Shown: positions 8,750-21,514 of the stretch, piece after piece
How the letters are laid out: the number at the start of each line of letters is the position of its first letter
Position numbering within the stretch: position 1 is the stretch's first letter
NCBI GenBank assembly: GCA_040754625.1
Contig: JBFMCF010000093.1
Span: 1 to 44,084, forward strand
Length of the DNA stretch: 44,084 bases
Source: a bacterium
GTDB taxonomy: Bacteria; JACRDZ01; JAQUKH01
Direction: 5' to 3'
Made by a program: the position numbers and the translations under genes
The notes under the pieces: generated by a model
Database searches by the model: none
Told to the model about the DNA's origin: nothing
The model's input: the letters and a program-made list of their open reading frames with translations, nothing else

Positions 8750-10267
8750 ATGCCTAAAAAATTTTATTTGACCACACCGTTATATTATGTAAATGACAAA
8801 CCTCATATAGGCCATAGTTATACAAATATAGCTGTAGATACTTTTGCGAGGTATCAAAGATTAAAAGGGAAAAGAGTTTTCTTTTTAACCGGCACCGATG
8901 AACACGGCAAAAAAGTCGAGGATGCTGCGAGAGAACGGAATCTTACGGGGCAGGAACTGGCGGACCAGATGGTTGTCAGGTTCCGGGATTTGTGGAAAAG
9001 GCTGAATATTTCATACGATGAGTTTATAAGGACAACGGAGAAACGGCATAAACTCGCGGTAGAGGCGGTATTTATTAAACTTTTACAAAAAGGTGACATT
9101 TATAAAGGCGAATATGAAGGATGGTATTGCACGCCGTGCGAGACGTTTTTGACCGAGACGCAGGCGGAGAACAATATTTGCCCCGACTGTAAAAGGCCTG
9201 TTGAAAAACTGAAAGAAGAAAGCTATTTCTTTAAAATGTCGAATTACCAGAAAAAGCTGATGGAACATCTTGAAAAAAACAAGGATTTTATAGTTCCATC
9301 TTCAAGATATAACGAAATTTATAGTTTTGTCAAAAGCGGGCTGAACGATTTAAGCGTTTCAAGGACCAATTTCCAATGGGGGATTCCTGTCCCTAATGAC
9401 ACAAAACACGTTGTTTATGTGTGGTTTGACGCGCTTATAAATTATATCACAGCCGCCGGTTACGGTATAAATAACAACGTATTCGAAGAACGGTGGCCCT
9501 CGGATGTCCATTTTATAGGAAAAGACATACTTAAGTTCCACGCTGTAATCTGGCCCGCGATTCTTTTCAGCCTTGAGCTGGAACCGCCTAAACGTATCGC
9601 CGCCCACGGCTGGTGGACGGTTGAAAAGAAAAAGATGTCAAAATCCCTGGGAAATGTGGTTGACCCTGTTGAGATGGTTGAAAGGTTCGGCGTTGACCCG
9701 TTCCGTTATTTTTTGCTACGGGAAATTCCATTCGGGCTTGACGGCGATTTTTCGGTTGATTTATTGATAAAAAGAATTAACGGTGACCTTGCGAATGACC
9801 TGGGGAACCTTTTGAACCGGAGCCTTGTAATGATTGAAAAATATAATAATGGGATTGTTCCGGAAAAAGGGACGCCTGAAAATGAGTTAAAAGCGATGTT
9901 TTATGAAATTCTGCCCAAATTCAACAATGCCATGGATGATATCCAGTTCAGCGAGGCCTTGACGGAGTTATGGCGGCTTGTCCGCCTGGCCAATAAATAT
10001 ATCGATTCACAGGCCCCGTGGAAATTGATAAAAGAGGGAAAAACGACGGAGGCCCTGCAGGTCCTTTATGACCTGGCTGAATCTCTGCGGATTATTTCAA
10101 TCCTGATTCGTCCTTTTATGCCGGAAACTTCAGAAAAAATTTGCGGCCAGCTCGGATTAACGGTAAATTTTGAAAAAGTTCTTATTGATGAAGCTGTCTG
10201 GGGCAAATTCCCTCCAAACATCAAAACAACCCGCGGCGAGCCGATTTTCCCGAGGATAGAAAAATAG
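8750..10267 (+). CDS. metG: Methionyl-tRNA synthetase
   Basis: 505-residue class I synthetase. The HIGH signature is in [12 protein letters not shown] and the KMSKS loop in [13 protein letters not shown] zinc knuckle is formed by CTPC and CPDC (about residues 127-147). The C-terminal dimerising, tRNA-binding EMAP domain found in longer MetG proteins is absent; the protein ends with PIFPRIEK. A near-identical copy of the last 32 bases is found at 21457-21488, marking this 3' end as the left border of an inserted island. Confidence 0.95.
10231..10262 (+). other. Left putative attachment repeat (metG 3' end)
   Basis: These 32 bases match 21457-21488 at 30 positions, with 22 contiguous identical bases at 10241-10262. 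They lie within the last codons of metG (…EPIFPRIE). This is the pattern of a target duplicated by integration into a gene's 3' end. Confidence 0.6.
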
Positions 10268-10464: not shown

Positions 10465-11082
10465 ATGACATCTAAAAGTTTAAAATCATTTGCAGAAAAA
10501 TTATTTAATGGCGCTCCATTATATAGTGTCGCAAAATTAATTGAAGATAAGAAAGGAATACCGGTTATAAATATTAAAGATATATCAGATGATAGGATTG
10601 AGATTCATAATCTTAAAAAATTTTCATTGAATAATTTTAAAAATGCCGAACACTATATTGTTTATCCTGATGATATACTTATTACCTGCCGTGGTACTCA
10701 ACTAAAAATTACAGTAGTTCCTAATAGCTTGCCAAAAGCAATAATAACGTCTAATCTCATAGCCATTCGTCTAACCAATGAGGTACTTCCAATATTTCTG
10801 GCCGCGTATTTAAGAACCAGGGAAGGGCAAAGAGTTCTTTTATCAAATATTGCATCTTCAACAATGCAGCTTGTATTAAATATATCTGATATTAGTGAGA
10901 TTAATGTCCCTGTCCCGGCTATAGATTTACAGAAAAAAATATCTAACCTTGCTGATATTTCAGAAGTACAATATCGTTTAAGTATAGAATCAGCTAATTT
11001 GAGAAAAGAAATTACAAATCAAATAGTAATGGATATGTTAATGAATAAGGAGGATTATCGTGGCGAAACTGACCAGTTCTGA
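10465..11082 (+). CDS. hsdS: Half-size type I restriction specificity subunit (HsdS-like)
   Basis: 205 residues resembling a single HsdS repeat: a target-recognition domain (PVINIKDI, DDILITCRGT and SNLIAIRL are typical strand motifs) followed by one conserved helix (about 165-195). Normal HsdS is about 400 residues with two recognition domains. A half-subunit would be expected to dimerise and read a palindromic bipartite site. GGAG at 10454-10457 precedes ATG 10465. The end overlaps hsdM by 23 bases. Having S before M, with R 5 kb downstream, is an unusual order. Confidence 0.75.
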   Translation: MTSKSLKSFAEKLFNGAPLYSVAKLIEDKKGIPVINIKDISDDRIEIHNLKKFSLNNFKNAEHYIVYPDDILITCRGTQLKITVVPNSLPKAIITSNLIAIRLTNEVLPIFLAAYLRTREGQRVLLSNIASSTMQLVLNISDISEINVPVPAIDLQKKISNLADISEVQYRLSIESANLRKEITNQIVMDMLMNKEDYRGETDQF

Positions 11083-12577
11083 ATTGAATAATTATTTATG
11101 GGGGGCAGCGGATATTTTACGAGGTTCTATTGATTCGTCGGATTACAAAAATTATATCTTTGGTTTTCTATTCCTAAAGAGGTTGTCGGATGTTTTTGAC
11201 GAAGAGGCGGAAAAGATTGAACAAAGAGAATTGAAAAGGGGTGTATCAAAATCCGAAGCGCAAAAAATAGCGCGGGAAGACCCGGACGAACATCAATTTT
11301 TTGTTCCCAGGCGCGGCCGGTGGCCTGAAATAAGAAAAATTTCTCAAAATATTGGGGATACGATTAATAAAGCCTGCGGTGTATTGGAGGATCAGAATCC
11401 CGCGTTAGAAGGGGTATTGGCAGATATAGATTTCAACTCAAATAAACTCGGAGACGCTAAAAATCGTGATTCCGTTTTATCCCGCCTCGTTAATCATTTC
11501 TCTCAAATTGACCTGAAAAATTCAAATCTTGAAGATCCGGACATTCTTGGACAGGCTTACGAATACCTGATCGAGAAATTCGCGGATGATGCCGGTAAAA
11601 AAGGCGGGGAATTTTTTTCGCCGCGGAAGGTTGTTCAGCTTATTGTTGAACTTTTAAAACCAAAAGAAGGTATGCGTATCTGTGACCCGACCTGCGGTTC
11701 AGGCGGTATGTTGATTGAATGCGCGCATTACATTGAAAGGAAAAAAGGCAACGCGAAGAATATTTCTTTATGCGGCCAGGAGAAAAATCTTGGAACGTGG
11801 TCCATATGCAAAATGAATATGCTTTTACATAATTTCCCGGACGCGGATATTCAAAAAGGTGATGTAATCCGCGATCCGAAATTCGTTAAAGACGGGGAAT
11901 TAGTGCTTTTTGACAGGGTAATAGCTAATCCGCCTTTCAGCCTTGATAGCTGGGGTACTGAGGCGGCCGAAAATGATGGTTATGTCAGGTTCCGCTATGG
12001 CATTCCACCTAAAACAAAAGGCGATTACGCGTTTGTTCAGCACATGATCGCGACATTAAATAATAACGGTGTCGCGGGGGTTGTGATGCCTCATGGTGTT
12101 CTTTTTAGAGGGGTGTCTGAAGGCAGGATTAGAAAGGCTTTGTTGGAAGAAGATTTTTTTGAGGCAATTATTGGGCTGGCGCCAAATCTTTTTTATGGGA
12201 CGGGCATTCCCGCGGCAATTTTAATATTAAACCGCAATAAACCAAAGGAGCGAAAAAATAAAGTTTTATTTATCAATGCCTCAGAATATTATGAAGCGGG
12301 CAAAAACCAAAACAGGCTGCGTAATGAAGATATAGGAAAAATTGTTAAGGTTTTTGATGAATACAAAGATATTGATAAATTTTCCCGCATTGTTTCACTT
12401 GATGAAATCAGAGAAAATGATCATAACCTTAATATCAGCCGTTACGTTGATATAACCGAACCTGAGCAGAAGATTGATGTAAAAGAGGCCCTCGCTAAAT
12501 TACGTGAACTTGAAAAAGAACGGGATAAGGCGGAGAAAAAAATGAATGAGTGTTTGAAGGAATTGGGGTATGAATAA
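11060..12577 (+). CDS. hsdM: Type I restriction-modification methyltransferase HsdM
   Basis: 505-residue N6-adenine methyltransferase. It has the HsdM N-terminal helical domain (about 1-140), SAM-binding motif I DPTCGSGGML (about 215) and catalytic motif IV ANPPF (about 293). The start is GTG 11060 with a strong AAGGAGG at 11046-11052 inside hsdS. It methylates the HsdS-specified site and forms the restriction complex with HsdR (17626). The C-terminal 40 residues form a Lys/Glu-rich coiled coil. Confidence 0.93.
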   Translation: MAKLTSSELNNYLWGAADILRGSIDSSDYKNYIFGFLFLKRLSDVFDEEAEKIEQRELKRGVSKSEAQKIAREDPDEHQFFVPRRGRWPEIRKISQNIGDTINKACGVLEDQNPALEGVLADIDFNSNKLGDAKNRDSVLSRLVNHFSQIDLKNSNLEDPDILGQAYEYLIEKFADDAGKKGGEFFSPRKVVQLIVELLKPKEGMRICDPTCGSGGMLIECAHYIERKKGNAKNISLCGQEKNLGTWSICKMNMLLHNFPDADIQKGDVIRDPKFVKDGELVLFDRVIANPPFSLDSWGTEAAENDGYVRFRYGIPPKTKGDYAFVQHMIATLNNNGVAGVVMPHGVLFRGVSEGRIRKALLEEDFFEAIIGLAPNLFYGTGIPAAILILNRNKPKERKNKVLFINASEYYEAGKNQNRLRNEDIGKIVKVFDEYKDIDKFSRIVSLDEIRENDHNLNISRYVDITEPEQKIDVKEALAKLRELEKERDKAEKKMNECLKELGYE

Positions 12578-12595: not shown

Positions 12596-13333
12596 ATGGA
12601 AAATATCTTCAAAGAAATAGACAAACTGCAAAAAGAAATTAACAAGTACAGGCCGTTAGATAACCATTTACTTAGTCAGATTAAAGAATATTATCGTATC
12701 GGATTGACTTACTCAAGCAATGCCCTGGAAGGTAATTCTTTAACGGAAGCAGAAACGAAGATTGTATTGGAAGATGGTATTACCATAGGAGGTAAACCTA
12801 TCAGGGATCACTATGAGGCTGTGGGCCATAGCGAGGCTTATGATCTGGTGTATAAACTGGCGAAAAACAAAGAAATGACTGAAAAGGATATTTTGGATTT
12901 ACACAGGTTATTTTATTATCGTATTGACGAGAAGAACGCGGGACGGTACAGGCAGGTAAAAGTTTTTATTACCGGCTCTAAATATCCTCTGCCATTGCCT
13001 CAGGAGGTTCCGGGCCTTATGAAAAAATTTATTCAGAATTTGCCTGAATCAAGGGGGAAATATCACCCTGTGGAATTCGCCGCCTTGGCGCATAAGGATT
13101 TTGTTTTTATACATCCGTTTGTGGATGGAAATGGAAGGGTAGCAAGACTGCTGATGAATTTGATTCTTTTGCAGGAGGGATATAATATCGCCATTACACC
13201 TCCGATATTGCGCCAGAAATATATTGCCACGCTTGAAAGCGCTCGTGTTGATGACAGGGATTTTATAACATTTATTGCCGGTATAGTCAAAGAAACTCAA
13301 AAAGATTATTTAAGGCTTTTTGGAGAAAATTAA
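12596..13333 (+). CDS. Fic-domain protein (probable AMP transferase)
   Basis: 245 residues with the Fic core motif HPFVDGNGR (about 176-184). At the N-terminus there is an inhibitory-helix motif of the (S/T)xxxE(G/N) type in SSNALEGN (about 39-46), so it is a self-inhibited class II Fic. Family members transfer AMP or other phosphate groups to protein hydroxyls. Fic genes commonly occur inside type I restriction loci as accessory cargo. It starts 18 bases after hsdM behind an AAAGGAGG. Its target is unknown. Confidence 0.88.
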   Translation: MENIFKEIDKLQKEINKYRPLDNHLLSQIKEYYRIGLTYSSNALEGNSLTEAETKIVLEDGITIGGKPIRDHYEAVGHSEAYDLVYKLAKNKEMTEKDILDLHRLFYYRIDEKNAGRYRQVKVFITGSKYPLPLPQEVPGLMKKFIQNLPESRGKYHPVEFAALAHKDFVFIHPFVDGNGRVARLLMNLILLQEGYNIAITPPILRQKYIATLESARVDDRDFITFIAGIVKETQKDYLRLFGEN

Positions 13334-13706
13334 AATCTGTAATCAGAGTATTGCTGATCGTTTTGGTGATATCAACAAAACGATAGTTAAACAAAAGGAT
13401 AAAATATGGCACGAGAAACCTTGTTTTGAGCTGCATCCAATTCAGACAAAACTTATATTCAAATCTCAAATAAAAGAATCTACTATTGTTGAGATGGATG
13501 AAAAAATATTAAATGGATTAAATGAAAGGCAAAGAGCAGCTGTAAATTATATAAGAAAAAATGCAAAGATTGATAGAAAAGAATATGCGAAATTATGTAA
13601 AACAAGCGAGAGAACAGCAAATAGAGAGCTAATGGAGTTGGTTCAAAAGGGAATAATAAAAAGAATGGGAAGCGGTACCAAATTTTATTATGAGTTGGCG
13701 AGCTAA
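13320..13706 (+). CDS. Winged-helix DNA-binding protein, possibly detached from a Fic protein
   Basis: 128 residues. The C-terminal 65 (about 64-128) resemble the winged helix that ends many Fic and AlbA_2 proteins: LNERQRAAVNYI, then KTSERTANRELMELVQKGII and a GSGTKFYYEL wing. The N-terminal half is not recognised. The frame differs from fic and overlaps it by 14 bases, so this could be a Fic C-terminal domain split off by a frameshift or an independent regulator. The start is uncertain: TTG 13320 or ATG 13496. Confidence 0.55.
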   Translation: MEKIKICNQSIADRFGDINKTIVKQKDKIWHEKPCFELHPIQTKLIFKSQIKESTIVEMDEKILNGLNERQRAAVNYIRKNAKIDRKEYAKLCKTSERTANRELMELVQKGIIKRMGSGTKFYYELAS

Positions 13707-13858: not shown

Positions 13859-13886
13859 GCCATTTTGTTGACGCCAACAAAATGGC
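13859..13886. repeat. Perfect 12-bp hairpin before the zinc-ribbon gene
   Basis: GCCATTTTGTTG (13859-13870) pairs perfectly with CAACAAAATGGC (13875-13886) over a 4-base loop. An alternative, smaller pairing of GTTGGC with GCCAAC overlaps it. It lies 22 bases before the probable start at 13909 and has no T-run, so a translational or operator role is as likely as termination. Confidence 0.6.
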
Positions 13887-13908
13887 GGCTATGTCAAAAG
13901 GACAAAAA

Positions 13909-14106
13909 ATGGATTGGTGCCCGTATTGCAAAAAATACACTGAATTGCAAATGAGAAAAATTGAAATGCAAGTGATAAAAAAGATATTGCTAATTTATCA
14001 TTGTGCTGGCTGCGGCAAATTTGTAAAAACAGAAGAAAAAAATGATGTGAATGTCGGGGTACAGCGCGCTGTGCCCTCTGAAAAAGGGCTCGTTAATGAA
14101 AAATAA
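13909..14106 (+). CDS. Small zinc-ribbon protein
   Basis: 65 residues with two cysteine pairs, CPYC near the N-terminus and CAGC about 24 residues later, as in small zinc ribbons. ATG 13909 is preferred because AAAGGA at 13897-13902 is well spaced; 13882 and 13891 are alternatives. The C-terminal third is encoded by REP-like palindromic sequence (14057-14076), so the original C-terminus has probably been replaced. Function unknown. Confidence 0.5.
   Translation: MDWCPYCKKYTELQMRKIEMQVIKKILLIYHCAGCGKFVKTEEKNDVNVGVQRAVPSEKGLVNEK
14057..14076. repeat. REP-like palindrome GGG-ACAGCGCGCTGT-CCC
   Basis: A 20-base palindrome centred between 14066 and 14067 with one mismatch. It has the same GGGG-palindrome-CCC design as the elements inside the RAYT gene and at 35667-35696, but a different inner word. 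Confidence 0.6.
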
Positions 14107-14442
14107 AAAGGTGCCGGATGGGTTAACAGAATTACTTTCCGAATGAAAACAATCAAATTGCGGATGAGTATATTTCGGCGGCAAGTGTTCAAAAGTATCT
14201 ATTACGGGCTGAGTTACTGTATCCTCGGTTGTGCCATCTATGTTTTTAGATGTTTTTTCATCCATGCTTGCATGTTAACATTAGTTATAATATTTTGTCA
14301 AGTATAACGTAGATGATCCAAATCTCCAACAAGCCGTTGGAGAAATATCCTGGTGACAAAATCTAGTAATAATGTCGCGAATAAAGGCCATGAAAGATAA
14401 TTACACTAACTGCAGGTCGTGCCTGCAGAAAATAGGGAAAAA
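14107..14442. other. Non-coding stretch with two hairpins before the RAYT gene
   Basis: I see no gene here. Two strong hairpins occur: TCTCCAAC (14323-14330) with GTTGGAGA (14336-14343), and CTGCAGG (14410-14416) with CCTGCAG (14422-14428). The second is 14 bases before the transposase start. Hairpins of this kind are what Y1 transposases recognise, so they may be the element's left-end sites. Confidence 0.45.
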
Positions 14443-15171
14443 ATGAGTAAATATAATCCAGATATTCATCATCGTAACTCTATAAGATTAAAAGATTATG
14501 ATTATGCGCGGGAAGGCGCGTATTTTGTTACGATATGCTGTTGGAATAAAGAATGTTTGTTTGGAGAAATTGGCATTGGTGTAGGGGCGGGTTCTAAACC
14601 CGCCCTGAGTCCTAAACCCGCCCTGAATCCTAAACCCGCCCAAATGATATTGAATGATACGGGACGGATGATTGAAGATACATGGAATGATTTACCAAAT
14701 CATAATGTCTGTATTGAATTGGATGAATTTGTAATAATGCCGAACCATATTCATGGGATTATTGTATTGGCTGGGCTGGCAGGTTTAGAACCTGTAACAA
14801 GCAGGGCAGGTTTGGAACCTGTAACAAACAGGGCAGGTTTGGAACCTGTAACAAACAGGGCAGGTTTGGAACCTGCCCCTACAGGACATAACGTTATGAA
14901 AATGCGTCATGGATTGCCGGAGATTATTCGGCAATTTAAAACATTTTCAGCCAAACGTATAAATAAATTGCGGCAAACCCCGGGTGTTCCTGTTTGGCAG
15001 CGGAATTATTACGAACACATTATCAGAAACGAAATAGAATTAAACAAAATTCGGGAATATATTATTAATAATCCTTTTAATTGGCAGGATGATGAATATT
15101 GTAGGGGTGAATCCATGTATTCGCCCAAATATGAGGCGCAAAATGACAGGAAATTCATTAGCTGTGTTTGA
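14443..15171 (+). CDS. REP-associated tyrosine transposase (RAYT, Y1 family)
   Basis: 242-residue Y1 transposase of the TnpA-REP group. It has the HUH motif in IMPNHIHGI (His102, His104), a catalytic tyrosine in QRNYYEHIIRN (Tyr189 or Tyr190) and the family start IRLKDYDYAREGAYFVT. Such enzymes cut single-stranded REP hairpins. Two low-complexity inserts, at about residues 46-66 (repeats of PKPAL) and 112-147 (repeats of RAGLEPVTN), are encoded by REP-like palindromic DNA in units of 18 and 27 bases, so the frame is kept. ATG 14443 follows an AGGGA. Activity with these inserts is uncertain. Confidence 0.88.
   Translation: MSKYNPDIHHRNSIRLKDYDYAREGAYFVTICCWNKECLFGEIGIGVGAGSKPALSPKPALNPKPAQMILNDTGRMIEDTWNDLPNHNVCIELDEFVIMPNHIHGIIVLAGLAGLEPVTSRAGLEPVTNRAGLEPVTNRAGLEPAPTGHNVMKMRHGLPEIIRQFKTFSAKRINKLRQTPGVPVWQRNYYEHIIRNEIELNKIREYIINNPFNWQDDEYCRGESMYSPKYEAQNDRKFISCV
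14581..14641. repeat. REP palindrome and 18-bp repeats inside the RAYT gene
   Basis: GTAGGGGC at 14581 opens a palindrome, GGGCGGGTT (14585-14593) with AACCCGCCC (14597-14605). It is followed by further 18-bp units of the CTAAACCCGCCCTGAATC type, three in all, each adding six codons. Confidence 0.8.
14777..14884. repeat. Four 27-bp REP-derived repeats inside the RAYT gene
   Basis: Four tandem units at 14777, 14804, 14831 and 14858, each containing the palindrome GGCAGGTTTGGAACCTG. Units 2 and 3 are identical. The last unit ends in GCCCCTACA, completing a full palindrome. The mirrored GTAGGGGC at 14581 suggests the two inserts belong to one REP family. Confidence 0.85.
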
Positions 15172-15403
15172 AAATTACAAAATCCGCAGAATTTATGATG
15201 AAAAATCTGAAACGTGGTATTTTTCTGTGATTGATATTATTCAGGTATTAATCCAGCAGTCCGATTATCAAACTGCCCGAAAATACTGGAATAAACTGAA
15301 AGAACGGCTGAAAAAGGAAGGAAGTGAGTCGGTGACAAATTGTCACCGGTTGAAATCAAGGATTCTTATTTATATTTGCATAAATAATAGTGAGGGGAAA
15401 TAA
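15143..15403 (+). pseudogene. Truncated BRO-N family protein
   Basis: The first 70 or so residues match the start of BRO-N/DinD-like proteins (KIRRIYDEKSETWYFSVID, then YWNKLKERLKKEGSESVTN). After the NCHRLK motif the sequence diverges into unrelated residues and stops at 86, where family members run to about 280. It is a 5' fragment of a gene like the intact one at 15583 but clearly a different allele. It overlaps the RAYT 3' end, with GAGG at 15133-15136. Confidence 0.75.
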
Positions 15404-15502
15404 TGAATTTTGAATTATTAGTTAAGTTTATCCTCAAATCAGGCTGACACTGACTGCCCAATTACAACAGCTTGAAGAATTTGCAAAAAACGAATTAAAA
15501 AA

Positions 15503-15557
15503 GTTATGGCTATGAATATGCGAGACTGGAACGAAATAAATTTATCTGAAAATCCGG
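15503..15557 (+). repeat. First copy of the hsdR 5' repeat
   Basis: The core 15524-15557 (34 bases) is identical to 16482-16515 and matches hsdR 17638-17671 at 33 of 34 positions. The similarity between copies 1 and 2 extends left to 15503. Its reading frame gives an hsdR-like start, DWNEINLSENP. Confidence 0.9.
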
Positions 15558-15586
15558 TTTACATCAAAAAGGGGAAGATCCTATGA
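15512..15586 (+). other. 24-codon leader frame from the hsdR start, coupled to the BRO gene
   Basis: ATG 15512 opens a frame encoding MNMRDWNEINLSENP and nine more residues. It stops at TGA 15584-15586, overlapping the BRO start as ATGA. It is a remnant of hsdR that may now act as a translational coupler for the next gene. Confidence 0.5.
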
Positions 15587-16422
15587 AAGAAAAAGATCTA
15601 ACTAAAATAGCTGTTTTTAGCGGTAAAAGAATAAGACGTCAATTGCTTAATAATGAGTGGTGGTTTTCAGTGGTGGACGTTGTGGCGGTCTTGACAGATA
15701 GTGAAAATCCGCGTGACTACTGGTATAAGATGAAAATACGAGAGAAATCAGAAGCTGGAACTGAACTGTCGACATTTTGTCTACAGTTGAAATTGACCGC
15801 GTCTGATGGGAAATTACGAGAAACAGACTGCTCAAATACTGAGGGTATCCTTCGTATCATCCAGTCAGTTCCTTCCCCAAAAGCTGAACCATTTAAACGC
15901 TGGTTGGCAAAGGTTGGGAAAGAAAGATTAGATGAAATAGAAAACCCGGAACTCGGAATGCAGAGGACTAAAGCGTTATATGAAAAGAAAGGTTATCCTA
16001 AAGAATGGATTGATAAACGCCTGCGCGGTATCGCTGTCCGGCAAAAACTTACCGATGAATGGGATTCGCGCGGGGCGGCGACAGATTTGGAATATGCGAT
16101 TCTTACAAATGAAATAATGCAGGGCGCGTTTGAAATGCCAGTTGATGATTACAAAAAACACAAAGGTTTAAAAAAGGAAAATCTGCGTGATCATATGACG
16201 GATTTAGAGCTTATTATTACTATGCTTGGTGAGGCGACAACAACAAAGATAACACAAGATAGAGATTCTCAAGGAATGCCTAAACTTCAGCGAGACGCCA
16301 AAGACGGCCGTGCAGTTGCCGGAAGAACGCGAAAAGATATTGAAGAGCAGACTGGGACAAAAGTGATTTCAAACGAAAAATTTTTGCCGGGACAGAAACA
16401 AAAACAAATAAAAGGGAAATAA
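15583..16422 (+). CDS. BRO-N domain protein (DinD/phage-antirepressor-like)
   Basis: 279 residues. An N-terminal BRO-type domain (RIRRQLLNNEWWFSVVDVV, about 15-35) leads into the conserved IQSVPSPKAEPFKRWLAKVG (about 96-115). The C-terminal half, with KGLKKENLRDHMTDLELI and EEQTGTKVISNEKFLP, is shared with BRO-like proteins of this length. Related proteins are phage antirepressors or DNA-damage-inducible factors. Their role inside restriction loci is unknown. It starts at ATG 15583, overlapping a short hsdR-derived frame by four bases. Confidence 0.8.
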   Translation: MKEKDLTKIAVFSGKRIRRQLLNNEWWFSVVDVVAVLTDSENPRDYWYKMKIREKSEAGTELSTFCLQLKLTASDGKLRETDCSNTEGILRIIQSVPSPKAEPFKRWLAKVGKERLDEIENPELGMQRTKALYEKKGYPKEWIDKRLRGIAVRQKLTDEWDSRGAATDLEYAILTNEIMQGAFEMPVDDYKKHKGLKKENLRDHMTDLELIITMLGEATTTKITQDRDSQGMPKLQRDAKDGRAVAGRTRKDIEEQTGTKVISNEKFLPGQKQKQIKGK

Positions 16423-16432
16423 ATTCTGTTCA

Positions 16433-16449
16433 GGCAGACAGTGTCTGCC
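16433..16449. repeat. REP-like palindrome GGCAGACA-G-TGTCTGCC
   Basis: Eight-base arms at 16433-16440 and 16442-16449, just after the BRO gene and before the second hsdR repeat. A degenerate version (about 15442-15459) lies in the same position before the first hsdR repeat, so the palindrome and the hsdR start appear to have been copied together. Confidence 0.6.
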
Positions 16450-16460
16450 CAATTAAAGAG

Positions 16461-16515
16461 GTTATGACTATGAATACACAAGACTGGAACGAAATAAATT
16501 TATCTGAAAATCCGG
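16461..16515 (+). repeat. Second copy of the hsdR 5' repeat
   Basis: The core 16482-16515 is identical to the first copy. An open frame from ATG 16470 to TAA 16566-16568 encodes 32 residues starting MNTQDWNEINLSENPAIELL, recognisably the HsdR start, then diverges. It is the remnant of a second hsdR 5' end. Confidence 0.9.
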
Positions 16516-16604
16516 CAATTGAACTTTTGCAGGCAATATTGTCTCCAAACGCGCTTGTCCGTGAATAATTTTTGTTTTTAAGTAATTAGAGAAAGGGAAA
16601 AACG

Positions 16605-17624
16605 ATGCCGCAAAAAGAAATAGACCATAGAGATTATGCAAAATTTTTGGATGAAATTAAGAAGAGAATTACTTCTGCACGGATTAATGCATATCGTAAA
16701 TTAAATGCAGAGCTAATAATATTGTATAGGGATATTGGGAAAAAGATTGTTGAAAAACAGGAAAAATTTGGATGGGGGAAAAATATTGTTGAAAAGTTAT
16801 CAGAAGATCTTACGTCCGAATTCGATGGTAAGAAAGGATTTTCGCCAAATAATCTTTGGCGGATGAGAATTTTTTATTTAACGTATAAAGATAGTCCAAA
16901 ACTTGCACAGCTTGTGCAAGAAATTCCCTGGGGACAAAATATAGTAATTATGCAGCGTATTAAAAACGAAGAAGTGAAAGAATATTATATTAAAAGTACC
17001 ATACAATTTGGCTGGAGCAGAGATGTTCTTATGCATCAGATAGAAGCAGAGGCTCATAAACAAACAAAGATAAAGAAAATGAATAATTTTCGCAAAGCCT
17101 TGCCGGCACACCTGGCAGAACAGGCCGACCTGGCCATGAAAGATAATTATGCCCTTGATTTTATCGACGTGTCTAAGCCGATACAAGAAAGAGAGATGGA
17201 AAGAAAACTTATTTCAGATTTAAAAAAGTTTATCGCTGAATTGGGTTTGGGATTTTGTTTTATAGGAAATCAATATCTAATTAAATTAAGAGATAAGGAA
17301 TATTATATCGATCTTTTATTCTTTCACAGGTATTTACGCTGTCTTGTGGCATTTGAGTTGAAAATAGGTGAGTTTAAACCCGAATATGCAGGCAAAATGA
17401 ATTTCTATTTAAGTTTACTCGATGACAATGTGCGATTACCGGAAGAAAATCCATCCATAGGGATTATTCTCTGCAAAAGTCGCGATAAGTTTGAAGTTGA
17501 ATATGCCTTACGAGATATTCAAAAACCAATAGGTATTTCAGATTACAAAGTAACAAAAAAATTGCCAAAGGGCTTCAATAAATCACTTCCAACCGCTGAG
17601 ATGTTAAAAAAAGGATTAGAATAA
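16605..17624 (+). CDS. YhcG/DUF1016-family PDDEXK nuclease
   Basis: 339 residues. The N-terminal DUF1016-N helical domain (about 10-165) includes the family segments GWGKNIVEKLSEDL and GFSPNNLWRMR. The C-terminal PDDEXK nuclease fold (about 190-335) has the acidic residue in YYIDLLFFHR and the ELK pair in LVAFELKIGEFKPEYAGKM. Members are often found beside type I restriction systems. It starts at ATG 16605 after a GGGAAAAAC and ends one base before hsdR. It is more AT-rich than its neighbours, suggesting separate acquisition. Confidence 0.88.
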   Translation: MPQKEIDHRDYAKFLDEIKKRITSARINAYRKLNAELIILYRDIGKKIVEKQEKFGWGKNIVEKLSEDLTSEFDGKKGFSPNNLWRMRIFYLTYKDSPKLAQLVQEIPWGQNIVIMQRIKNEEVKEYYIKSTIQFGWSRDVLMHQIEAEAHKQTKIKKMNNFRKALPAHLAEQADLAMKDNYALDFIDVSKPIQEREMERKLISDLKKFIAELGLGFCFIGNQYLIKLRDKEYYIDLLFFHRYLRCLVAFELKIGEFKPEYAGKMNFYLSLLDDNVRLPEENPSIGIILCKSRDKFEVEYALRDIQKPIGISDYKVTKKLPKGFNKSLPTAEMLKKGLE

Positions 17625-17625
17625 A

Positions 17626-20600
17626 ATGATTACCCCAGACGGGAACGAAATAAATTTATCTGAAAATCCGGCGGTTGAATTATTGGAAAAGCTTGGATAT
17701 GCGTTTGTGCCGTCGGAAAAATTGGACTTAGAGCGGGAGAGTTTGAGAGATACTGTTTTGGTTCACCGCCTAGAAAAAAAGCTCGAAGAGCTTAATCCGT
17801 GGCTTTCTGATGAAAACCTTAAAAAAGCGGTAAGGGCTGTAACTAATGTTCCCGCGTCCAGTTTAATCGAGGCAAACGAGAAAATTTATATTTCTCTGGC
17901 GCATGGATTATCGCTTGAGCAGGATATTGATGGTAAAGGTAAAAAAAGTCATAATGTTTATTTTATAGATTTTGACCATCCTGAAAAAAATGAGTTTATT
18001 GTAACCCGGCAGTTTAAAATTTCCGGGCCGAAAGAAAATATTATATGCGATGCAGTGGTTTTTGTTAACGGGATACCTCTGGCTGTTTTTGAATGCAAAA
18101 GTCCCACTGTCCACGAGCCCATCAATAAAGCGATTGAACAGTTGTTCAGGTATCAGGAATTGAAAGATGAATATAAAAACAGGGGTGTCCCTAAATTATT
18201 TGAAACCGTTCAAATTCTTATTGCAACCTGCGGGCAGAAAGCGAAATTCGCGACTGTATACGCGCCGTACAGGCATTTCCTGGAATGGAAAGAGCCTTAT
18301 CCAATTACTCTTGATGAACTAAGCAAAAAGCATACCTCCCGAATTTTTAACAAGCCTCCCAACCCGCAGGATATCCTTATCTATGGATTACTTGAAAAAA
18401 ATAATTTTTTGAACATTATACGCAATTTTATCGCTTTTGAGGTGGAAAGTGGCCGGGCAATAAAAAAGATTGCAAGGTATCAGCAGTTTATCGCGGTAAA
18501 TAATGCCATAAGGCGTATTCAGGAAGCTAAAGACTCTGAAAATCGCGGAGGGATTATCTGGCACACGCAGGGTTCGGGAAAATCACTGTCAATGTTATGG
18601 CTTGCGGTAAAGTTAAAACGGTGCAGGAAATTGGAAAATCCAATGTTAATTGTAGTGACAGACCGGATTGACCTTGATAACCAAATCGCCGGGACGTTTC
18701 AGCGATGCGGTTTTCCCAACCCCGTTCAGGCGGAAAGCGTAAAACACTTAAGAGAATTAATTCAGGCTGGAAACGGCCAGTCAATTATGACCACAATTCA
18801 AAAATTTCAGGAATTAACTAATAATGAACATCCTGCCCTGTCCGAAGCCGAAAACATTTTTGTAATGGTTGATGAAGCGCACAGGACACAATACAAAAAC
18901 TTGGCGGCAAACATGAGACAGGCCTTACCAAAATCCTGTTTTTTGGGATTTACAGGCACCCCGATAGATAAGAAAGACAGAAGCACTATACAAACATTCG
19001 GCTCCTATATCCACACTTATACTATCGAGCAGGCTGTTCAGGACGGCGCGACTGTTCCAATATATTATGAAAGCAGGCTCCCGGATGTTCATGTCCATGG
19101 CGCGAATCTGGATATGCTTTTTAACAGGTATTTTCAGGACTATGATGAAAAGGAGCGGGAAGAGATTAAGCGAAAATACGTGACCGAAGAAATAATCGGG
19201 CTTGCCTCTACGCGCGTAGAGGCCATTTGTCTCGATATAATTGAACATTATGAAAAATTCATTATGCCTAACAGTTTTAAGGCCCAGATTGTGACTTCAA
19301 GCCGGGAGGCCGCGATAATATATAAAGATACCCTTGACAGGTTGAATGCTCCGCCTTCGGCAGTTTTAATTTCTGGAAGCAACAATGATCCACAGCGCCT
19401 TAAAAAGCATCATAAGAACCAGGCGGAAGAAAAAGAAATTATCCGGAGCTTTAAAGAAGATCCGGTGGAAAGATTGGCGATTATTGTTGTTTGCGACAAG
19501 CTGTTGACAGGTTTCGACGCGCCTGTCGAACAGGTTATGTATATTGACAGCCCGTTAAAAGAGCATACACTTTTACAGGCAATCGCCCGTGTTAACAGGA
19601 CAGCCGACAAGAAAGATTATGGGCTTATAGTCGATTACTGGGGAATATCACGGGATTTGCAGGAGGCGTTAAATGTGTTTAAGCCTTCTGATATTGAAGA
19701 TATTTTGCGGGCGATAACCCCTAAAAAAGATGAAATTCCCCGCCTTGAAGCCCGTTACAGGGCCGTAATGCGTTTCTTTGACAGAGCGGATAAATCCAGC
19801 CTTGAGGACTGCATAAAAATATTAGAACCGGAAGATATAAGGGCTGATTTTGATGTTTCATTTAGGCGTTTCAGCCAAAGTATGGACATGGTTTTACCCG
19901 ATCCGTCCGCTTTAAGATATAGCGCGGATTTGAGATGGCTGGGTAAAGTAAGAAACGCGGCGAAAGCTCGTTTTCGCGATTCGGCTCTTGATTTATCAAG
20001 CTGTGGAGCAAAAGTCCGCCAGCTTATTGAAGAACATATCAGAACAAATGGAGTCCAGAAACTTCTGGAACCGGTATCAATATTTTCCAAAAAATTCGAT
20101 GAAGTAGTTGAAGCCTTAAGTTCACCGGAAGCGAAGGCGAGTGAAATTGAACACGCTATTCGCCATGAGATACACGTTCATTTGGAGGAAGATCCCGTTT
20201 TTTATCAATCGGTTAAGGAGCGTCTTGAAAAAATTATCGAGGAAAAGAAACAAGAGAGAATAAATGCTGTTGAGGAACTCAAACATTTGCAGGCCCTTGT
20301 TAATGAAGCCCGAAATATGGGAAAAACCGCACATGATTTAGGATTTTCAGAGACAGAATATGCCTTATATAAAATTCTTTCGTTTGAAACCAAAACGGAA
20401 AAACAAGAGGATAATTTAGTTAAAGAACCAGCCGCTCAATATGGCAAAAAGAAAGATATCCATAAAGATTTGACTCATTCTATTATGGGATCATTAGAAA
20501 AACTTACTGTGATTGACTGGATTCATAAGGATGATGTCCAGCGTGAAATGAGAAGGCAGATAAAAGGAATTTTAAGAGAAAAGGGCTGTCAATTCGAGGC

Positions 20601-20658
20601 AATTGAAAATTTAACGGCTAAGATTATGGATTTGGCAAGAGTGAGGCTTGCAAAATAA
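17626..20658 (+). CDS. hsdR: Type I restriction endonuclease HsdR
   Basis: 1010 residues: an N-terminal nuclease domain with the catalytic DAVVFVNG…AVFECKSP (D, then ExK; about residues 143-163), and an SF2 translocase with WHTQGSGKS (Walker A, about 318), MVDEAHRTQ (about 412), GFTGTPI (about 440) and QAIARVNRTADKKDYG (about 650). A C-terminal helical region probably contacts HsdM. It cleaves unmodified DNA after ATP-driven translocation. Its first 15 codons occur twice more upstream. The nuclease and helicase motifs are complete. The stop overlaps the next start by one base (TAATG). Confidence 0.95.
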   Translation: MITPDGNEINLSENPAVELLEKLGYAFVPSEKLDLERESLRDTVLVHRLEKKLEELNPWLSDENLKKAVRAVTNVPASSLIEANEKIYISLAHGLSLEQDIDGKGKKSHNVYFIDFDHPEKNEFIVTRQFKISGPKENIICDAVVFVNGIPLAVFECKSPTVHEPINKAIEQLFRYQELKDEYKNRGVPKLFETVQILIATCGQKAKFATVYAPYRHFLEWKEPYPITLDELSKKHTSRIFNKPPNPQDILIYGLLEKNNFLNIIRNFIAFEVESGRAIKKIARYQQFIAVNNAIRRIQEAKDSENRGGIIWHTQGSGKSLSMLWLAVKLKRCRKLENPMLIVVTDRIDLDNQIAGTFQRCGFPNPVQAESVKHLRELIQAGNGQSIMTTIQKFQELTNNEHPALSEAENIFVMVDEAHRTQYKNLAANMRQALPKSCFLGFTGTPIDKKDRSTIQTFGSYIHTYTIEQAVQDGATVPIYYESRLPDVHVHGANLDMLFNRYFQDYDEKEREEIKRKYVTEEIIGLASTRVEAICLDIIEHYEKFIMPNSFKAQIVTSSREAAIIYKDTLDRLNAPPSAVLISGSNNDPQRLKKHHKNQAEEKEIIRSFKEDPVERLAIIVVCDKLLTGFDAPVEQVMYIDSPLKEHTLLQAIARVNRTADKKDYGLIVDYWGISRDLQEALNVFKPSDIEDILRAITPKKDEIPRLEARYRAVMRFFDRADKSSLEDCIKILEPEDIRADFDVSFRRFSQSMDMVLPDPSALRYSADLRWLGKVRNAAKARFRDSALDLSSCGAKVRQLIEEHIRTNGVQKLLEPVSIFSKKFDEVVEALSSPEAKASEIEHAIRHEIHVHLEEDPVFYQSVKERLEKIIEEKKQERINAVEELKHLQALVNEARNMGKTAHDLGFSETEYALYKILSFETKTEKQEDNLVKEPAAQYGKKKDIHKDLTHSIMGSLEKLTVIDWIHKDDVQREMRRQIKGILREKGCQFEAIENLTAKIMDLARVRLAK
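17638..17671 (+). repeat. Third (native) copy of the hsdR 5' repeat
   Basis: Codons 5-15 of hsdR. One base differs from the two upstream copies, changing Trp to Gly. Confidence 0.9.
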
Positions 20659-21370
20659 TGATAGAAAAAGGCACAGTCTCATTTGGCAGAAAAAATATAA
20701 ACTTTTTTGTTAAACGCAGTAAAAAAAGAAAAACCGTAAGTGTTTTTGTTGATCCTATAGAAGGTGTTTTTTTAAGGGCGCCTTTTAACCTATCGATTGG
20801 TTTCCTTTCAAAATTAGTGCATTCCAAAGCTGTATGGATAATAGATAAACAGCGCCACATAAACGAAATCAGGGAGCATTTGCCAAAAAGAGAATTTATT
20901 ACCGGCGAAACTTTTATGTATTTAGGGAGACAACTGCGGTTAAAAATACTGGAATCTAAAAATAAGCCGACAATTACTGTAAAAGGCGGCAGATTTTTAG
21001 TAATAATTCACGGATGGTCGAAGAAGTTAGAAATATATTGGCTCGTTGGTATAAAAAACACGCGAAAATAGTTTTATCCAAAAGGGTAAAAATATACTCG
21101 AAGAAATTAAAATTAATTACACCTGAGATAATTCTCGCTAATCAAAGCAAACGGTGGGGCAGTTGTAATCGGAAAGGCCAGATTCGTTTTAACTGGCATA
21201 TTGTTATGGCGTCCATGTTCTTGGTGGATTATGTAGTTGCTCACGAGTTGTGCCATTTAAAATATGCGAACCATTCAAAAAATTTTTGGAAAATGCTTGG
21301 CACAATCCTTCCCGATTATGAAATTCGCCGCGAACGGCTTCGTAGAGAAGGTCCGAAGTATTATTTTTAA
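20658..21370 (+). pseudogene. YgjP-like (M48/DUF45) metallopeptidase with a frameshift
   Basis: The N-terminal half (20658 to about 21000) and the C-terminal half (about 20999-21370) of one protein lie in different frames. The second half has the zinc site HELCHLKYANHSKNFW and the family segment SKRWGSCN. A missing base in the T-run at 20994-20998 would restore a single protein of about 237 residues. YgjP-like genes often accompany type I restriction operons. It could be a true mutation or a homopolymer sequencing error. The sequence AGATTTTTAG resembles, but does not match, a canonical -1 slippery site. Confidence 0.8.
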
Positions 21371-21433: not shown

Positions 21434-21514
21434 TGCGACGAATTTCTCGGGACCGACCGCGGCGCACCGATTTTCCCGAGGATAGAAACAGTGAGCGGTG
21501 GTCTTGCACTATAA
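21434..21514 (+). pseudogene. Displaced 3' end of a metG gene
   Basis: The frame reads CDEFLGTDRGAPIFPRIETV and then SGGLAL before a stop, matching the MetG C-terminus ([10 protein letters not shown]) in phase. Nothing upstream belongs to it. This is what remains when an element carrying its own copy of a gene end integrates and pushes the original end to its far border. Confidence 0.6.
21457..21488 (+). other. Right putative attachment repeat
   Basis: Direct repeat of 10231-10262, 30 of 32 bases identical, 11.2 kb away. The two copies enclose the whole restriction-modification cluster. Confidence 0.6.

Follow-up and report, generated by a model that had tools for sequence, protein, structure and literature searches.

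A type I restriction–modification (RM) locus was found to carry the start of its hsdR gene three times over, once in hsdR itself and twice as short stubs standing before accessory genes. The locus lies in a bacterial contig of 44,084 nucleotides (nt), JBFMCF010000093.1 of assembly GCA_040754625.1, which was analysed over its whole length and is called the window here; every feature described lies on the forward strand. We put the chances at about even that incoming type I DNA bearing its own hsdR start recombined with the locus at least twice, in a turnover hotspot, and that the two stubs are the scars.

The repeated element is a 34-nt core, GACTGGAACGAAATAAATTTATCTGAAAATCCGG, encoding DWNEINLSENP. 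A sequence repeat search located it in identical form at 15524–15557 (copy 1) and 16482–16515 (copy 2), and with one mismatch (GACGGG..., TGG to GGG) at 17638–17671 within the start of the true hsdR (copy 3), so that all three cores are 33–34/34 identical. The 2.75-Mb genome contained exactly these three occurrences at up to three mismatches, and a backwards-read control pattern gave none. Copy 1 is followed by a gene for a BRO-N protein (15583–16422; Pfam Bro-N, PADLOC PDC-S13), copy 2 by one for a YhcG/DUF1016 PD-(D/E)XK nuclease (16605–17624; PADLOC PDC-S02), and copy 3 opens HsdR (17626–20658), which is full length at 1010 amino acids with an uninterrupted reading frame. Copies 1 and 2 are alike over 65 nt at 91% (15493–15557 and 16451–16515), that is, over about 31 nt upstream plus the core, with mismatches confined to outside of the core; 33 nt of the copy 1 upstream region are absent from copy 2. 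These results bear out a sequence-only reading of the same DNA, which had reported the three segments, the gene behind each, an intact hsdR and a further upstream likeness of copies 1 and 2 with a palindrome nearby.

Both stubs form short open reading frames (ORFs). Stub ORF 1 (15512–15586) encodes MNMRDWNEINLSENPVYIKKGKIL and its stop overlaps the BRO start (ATGA); stub ORF 2 (16470–16568) encodes MNTQDWNEINLSENPAIELLQAILSPNALVRE, the beginning of a divergent hsdR allele, cut short, and ends 36 nt before the YhcG start. At 17635–17643 the resident hsdR has Gly in DWNE where close relatives have Trp (GACGGG versus GACTGG), and both stubs have Trp. For the peptide upstream of copy 1 (IRLTLTAQLQQLEEFAKNELKKLWL), searches of Pfam, plasmids and 384 Omnitrophota genomes gave no confident match, and no viral contig carried an HsdR N-terminus or a degenerate core.

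When the stubs were compared as protein and as DNA, their best matches were true hsdR starts only, namely the hsdR of a sister species (54 nt, 93%), an Omnitrophota locus (71 nt, 83%) and Nitrospirota loci. The refuting case set beforehand, a repeat belonging to the accessory genes, was looked for at 61 loci: 30 YhcG and 30 BRO loci of the 384 Omnitrophota genomes, whose BRO relatives reach 73–79% identity, and one same-phylum BRO locus, which adjoins Cas3/Cas4-like ORFs identified from their translations. None of the best stub matches lay beside BRO or YhcG relatives at these loci, and the repeat was rejected as a part of either gene. Because the stubs match true hsdR starts and the BRO and YhcG relatives elsewhere lack a stub, the repeat is derived from hsdR, as had been proposed.

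Past the core, copy 2 reads on as GCAATTGAACTTTTGCAG (AIELLQ) and the resident hsdR as GCGGTTGAATTATTGGAA (AVELLE). Over the 18 nt after the core, copy 2 agreed with the hsdR of the Omnitrophota locus L009 at 15/18 positions and with the resident at 11/18, while resident and sister species agreed at 17/18. The AIELLQ state also occurs in L009 and the Nitrospirota locus L034, and AVELLE/AVEFLE is common to the resident and the sister species. At informative sites, counted by eye, the core favoured the resident lineage by 6:0 and the downstream stretch the L009 lineage by 5:2 (Fisher p = 0.021). The likeness of copy 2 to hsdR had been taken to span 34 nt; those 34 nt stand, and the limit does not, since at the protein level a further six codons (ENPAIELLQ) of a divergent allele follow. 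Together the data provide moderate evidence that the continuation of copy 2 belongs to a different hsdR lineage than the resident, the evidence being only moderate because the stretch is short. Copy 2 is unlikely to be a recent duplicate of the resident start. Copy 1 has no likeness to hsdR beyond the last base of the core.

The analysis was extended to other type I loci. For the window and 22 further type I loci, taken from genomes and plasmids, up to 9 kb of upstream sequence was searched with the hsdR start (−30 to +80); the same upstream sequence reversed served as the control. Start positions were approximate in a few of the distant loci, and four loci offered much less upstream sequence than 9 kb. 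The window reached 80 against a control of 25, and all other loci stayed near the control. Altogether, no start copies were found in 25 comparator type I loci, the sister species included, at least nine of which had accessory genes before hsdR. The cargo between hsdS and hsdR in these nine or more loci includes Fic with AbiE, Abi, HigBA with Fic, and an ATPase with TPR and HrgA, in support of the earlier view of this interval as a slot for accessory genes. The accompanying claim, that each capture had copied the resident hsdR start, was not well supported: copy 2 is of a non-resident lineage, and no start copies came to light at the comparators in a comparison of the kind suggested as its check. 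Borderline start-like repeats in loci L013 and L051 are parts of unrelated coding sequences and are probably chance matches, and a Klebsiella plasmid with two matches to the hsdR start was set aside, the second match being the whole 121-nt query, distant on the plasmid, with no short stub beside hsdR. Three plasmid loci with hsdR genes 88–99% identical (L126, L127 and L128) hold no gene, one gene (YecA) or two genes (YecA and a cold-shock-domain protein) in the slot, with clean junctions and no start copies; they make up a naturally occurring series in which to study how accessory genes are gained.

The sister species (contig JAQUKH010000016.1) carries the orthologous type I operon in the order half-S, HsdM, DinD, small Cys-rich ORF, HsdS, trypsin-like protease, DUF2188, a 285-amino-acid protein, HsdR and YgjP-like. 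Its HsdR is 82% identical to that of the window, and it has a single hsdR start, before which the slot holds three different accessory genes. An empty site, with no cargo and a single start, was not found in a close relative; the sister species has one start and different cargo. Identity at four-fold sites between the window and the sister species was 53% for hsdR, 62% for HsdM (p = 0.09 between these two), 44% for MetG and 52% for RicT. Because the divergence of hsdR is about that of hsdM and core genes, these values are compatible with the hsdR body being a long-term resident.

The arrangement suggests the following scheme. Incoming type I RM DNA, comprising an accessory gene and the start of a related hsdR of its own, would join the locus at or beside the conserved hsdR start. 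A single crossover within the common 34 nt would give a left copy with resident upstream and donor downstream sequence, then the cargo, then a right copy with donor upstream sequence and the resident body, and hsdR would survive whole with a dead start left before the cargo. We infer the crossover, the order of events and another type I locus as the donor, and none of the mechanisms considered (crossover, decay of displaced alleles, copying of the resident start) is demonstrated. Several observations weigh against the scheme. The informative stretch past copy 2 comprises only 18 nt, and the tree (L009,(copy 2,(resident, sister species))) accounts for the sites without a crossover, which is not required because this single tree, with copy 2 just outside the resident and the sister species, fits both core and downstream sequence. 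To the right of copy 1 the sequence (VYIKKGKIL) does not resemble hsdR, a donor locus with the predicted order was not found, and neither a circular intermediate nor an integrase was visible. A stronger version, in which the conserved hsdR start would be a preferred short-homology landing site in this lineage, circular or tandem DNA of accessory gene plus hsdR start would enter by single crossover, and hsdR would be rebuilt each time as cargo accumulates, appears rather doubtful to us.

The main rival, which we regard as a real if minor possibility, is that the stubs are debris of displaced hsdR genes: the bodies of old alleles would have been deleted or replaced by modules of accessory gene plus new hsdR, with the starts left behind and none of them duplicated. 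The start of hsdS at 14097 does persist without its body, indicating that start-only remnants arise here through body loss, and the interval also contains fragments of DinD and BRO; the non-resident allele in copy 2 and the restriction of the copy 1/copy 2 mismatches to positions outside the core are also in keeping with displaced alleles. Such decay would, however, require at least two independent alleles to have been cut back to almost the same point, and the resemblance of copies 1 and 2 takes in upstream sequence and the palindrome. That upstream likeness, together with the near-identical cores, speaks instead for the model of the sequence-only reading, in which each accessory insertion duplicated the resident hsdR start as an insertion with long target duplication. 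Long target duplications of variable length are documented around RM genes (PMC3031569), and a 30/32 copy of the metG 3' end flanks the island as a whole. The model is nevertheless less likely because the sequence after the copy 2 core is that of a non-resident allele, and the comparators, sister species included, lack start copies despite their cargo, as do the clean junctions of the plasmid series; we consider it unlikely.

That the stubs are retained for a function of their own, be it as a leader for initiating translation of the accessory gene or as a site to which a recombinase attaches, is highly improbable. The overlap of stub 1 with the BRO start would suit a leader, but it is unremarkable because it arises with P ~0.46 under spacer shuffles, and stub 2 stops short of YhcG; accessory genes elsewhere do without a stub, and no recombinase gene was recognised beside the stubs, the nearest mobile-element gene being the Y1-like ORF at 14419. 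Since the assembly comprises 138 contigs, of which the window is one, there is room in principle for an assembly artefact. Yet the flanks differ among the three copies, unlike those of a collapsed or duplicated contig end, and the 34-nt identity has no chance matches in 2.75 Mb, making artefact or chance similarity scarcely credible.

Besides the core region, copies 1 and 2 are accompanied by a common 26-nt stretch (88%). It lies at 15439–15464 with an imperfect palindrome (GGCTGACACTGACTGCC) and at 16430–16455 with the palindrome GGCAGACAGTGTCTGCC, which is exact at 16433–16449 and has two mismatches at 15442–15458, against a chance expectation of 0.07 per window at up to three mismatches. 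In this genome the palindrome occurs once at up to one mismatch, the second, imperfect copy being that at 15442. The suggestion that it marks breakpoints found no support: in six genomes searched it was present only at this locus, and a dispersed breakpoint or REP/RAYT element was rejected for this genome. In locus L038 (9580–9650) a DUF1016-type reading frame contains several in-frame palindromic segments, (R)QTxSA-type repeats, that resemble the window palindrome. Because this similar palindrome sits in a DUF1016-type frame, the window palindrome may be coding sequence brought from elsewhere, a proposal that is unproven.

Both HsdM (11060–12577) and HsdR of the type I system are present, according to Pfam and PADLOC matches. 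A half-length HsdS-like protein of 205 amino acids (10465–11082), kept in the sister species, precedes HsdM and is intact, and a Fic-domain protein (12596–13333; PADLOC PDC-S04) follows HsdM. Next come a small Cys-rich ORF (13909–14103), 85% identical to its sister-species counterpart, the hsdS start remnant (14097–14121; MKNKKVPDG..., first codons only), an ORF like Y1/REP-associated tyrosine transposases (14419–15171), which scored below the NCBIfam cut-off, and the 5' fragment of a second BRO-type gene (15143–15403). The Y1-like ORF contains internal palindromic repeats, with GGGTTT/AAACCC-type segments recurring in its coding sequence at periods of 18 and 27 nt. The BRO and YhcG genes, of candidate defence families, thus sit between the hsdS remnant and hsdR. 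PDC-S04, PDC-S13 and PDC-S02 are all candidate families only, and the Fic, BRO-N and YhcG products are presumed, by family membership only, to be add-on anti-phage factors. Behind hsdR a YgjP-like metallopeptidase gene (20658–21370) is split by a frameshift, which may be a genuine mutation or a sequencing error; it is a single 241-amino-acid ORF in the sister species.

A full-length HsdS was absent from the window, and the rest of the sister-species HsdS beyond the start remnant had no detectable match there. Any remaining DNA restriction would have to depend on the half-S protein. Two short DinD-like motifs (xIADHFVDVNKM...KGAK) at 13320–13385 and 13861–13908 are weak (E 0.003–0.04); an intact DinD occupies the sister-species slot. 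The hsdS, BRO and DinD remnants point to repeated rewriting of the hsdS–hsdR interval, and because of them and the frameshifted YgjP-like gene the island looks like the debris of turnover. With only the first codons left of hsdS and a frameshift in the YgjP-like gene, the locus as a whole is less intact than had been assumed. On its left the 11-kb island borders on the 3' end of metG (10231–10262), on its right on the metG copy (21457–21488). This repeat resembles a duplicated target or attachment site; the island genes that were scanned included none recognisable as an integrase. Downstream of the sister-species metG, DNA matching the window from 41576 onward begins within ~480 nt.

The entry of accessory defence genes into RM operons is seldom visible in sequence, and the footprints kept here, namely hsdR-start stubs (one from a second lineage), a metG-end repeat and remnants of hsdS, BRO and DinD, make routes of entry and loss testable with a few more genomes. 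Caution is needed in generalising, as related loci acquire accessory genes at the same place without start copies. HsdR proteins starting with DWNE(I/L)(N/H)LSE(N/D)P form a subfamily that includes L009 of Omnitrophota and L010, L011 and L034 of Nitrospirota (59–79% over the first 100 amino acids). A YgjP-like gene also follows hsdR in L006, L009, L033 and L034, whereas each such locus has one hsdR start in place of the three in the window.

Linkage of type I RM genes to genes without a part in restriction is known, for instance for PrrC/RloC. The R-linked genes of Campylobacter type I loci were named rlo, and we know of no hsdR-start repeats at Campylobacter rlo or PrrC/RloC loci. Insertion with long target duplication was reportedly described by Nobusato and colleagues in 2000. 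As in that process, direct repeats flank the inserts here (the hsdR-start and metG 3'-end repeats); in contrast to it, one repeat continues as a non-resident allele while copies 1 and 2 are alike upstream, and accessory genes inside the RM operon are involved besides the RM island. Published examples include direct repeats of host sequence, long and of variable length, flanking inserted RM-related genes (PMC3031569). DarTG2 and other modules, candidates by 'guilt-by-embedding', are embedded in type I RM loci, and the hsdS–hsdR site is called a potential recombination hotspot in the RptR paper (PMC12255303). Accessory defence-type genes occupy the same operon interval in the window, which differs in having start-derived stubs; none occurs in the comparators examined and none is mentioned in the parts of the RptR paper drawn on here. 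The literature already covers the hotspot as well as insertion with long target duplication, and what is unusual here is the preserved footprints: the stubs look like scars of gene swapping in a known defence-gene hotspot, with no new loading mechanism.

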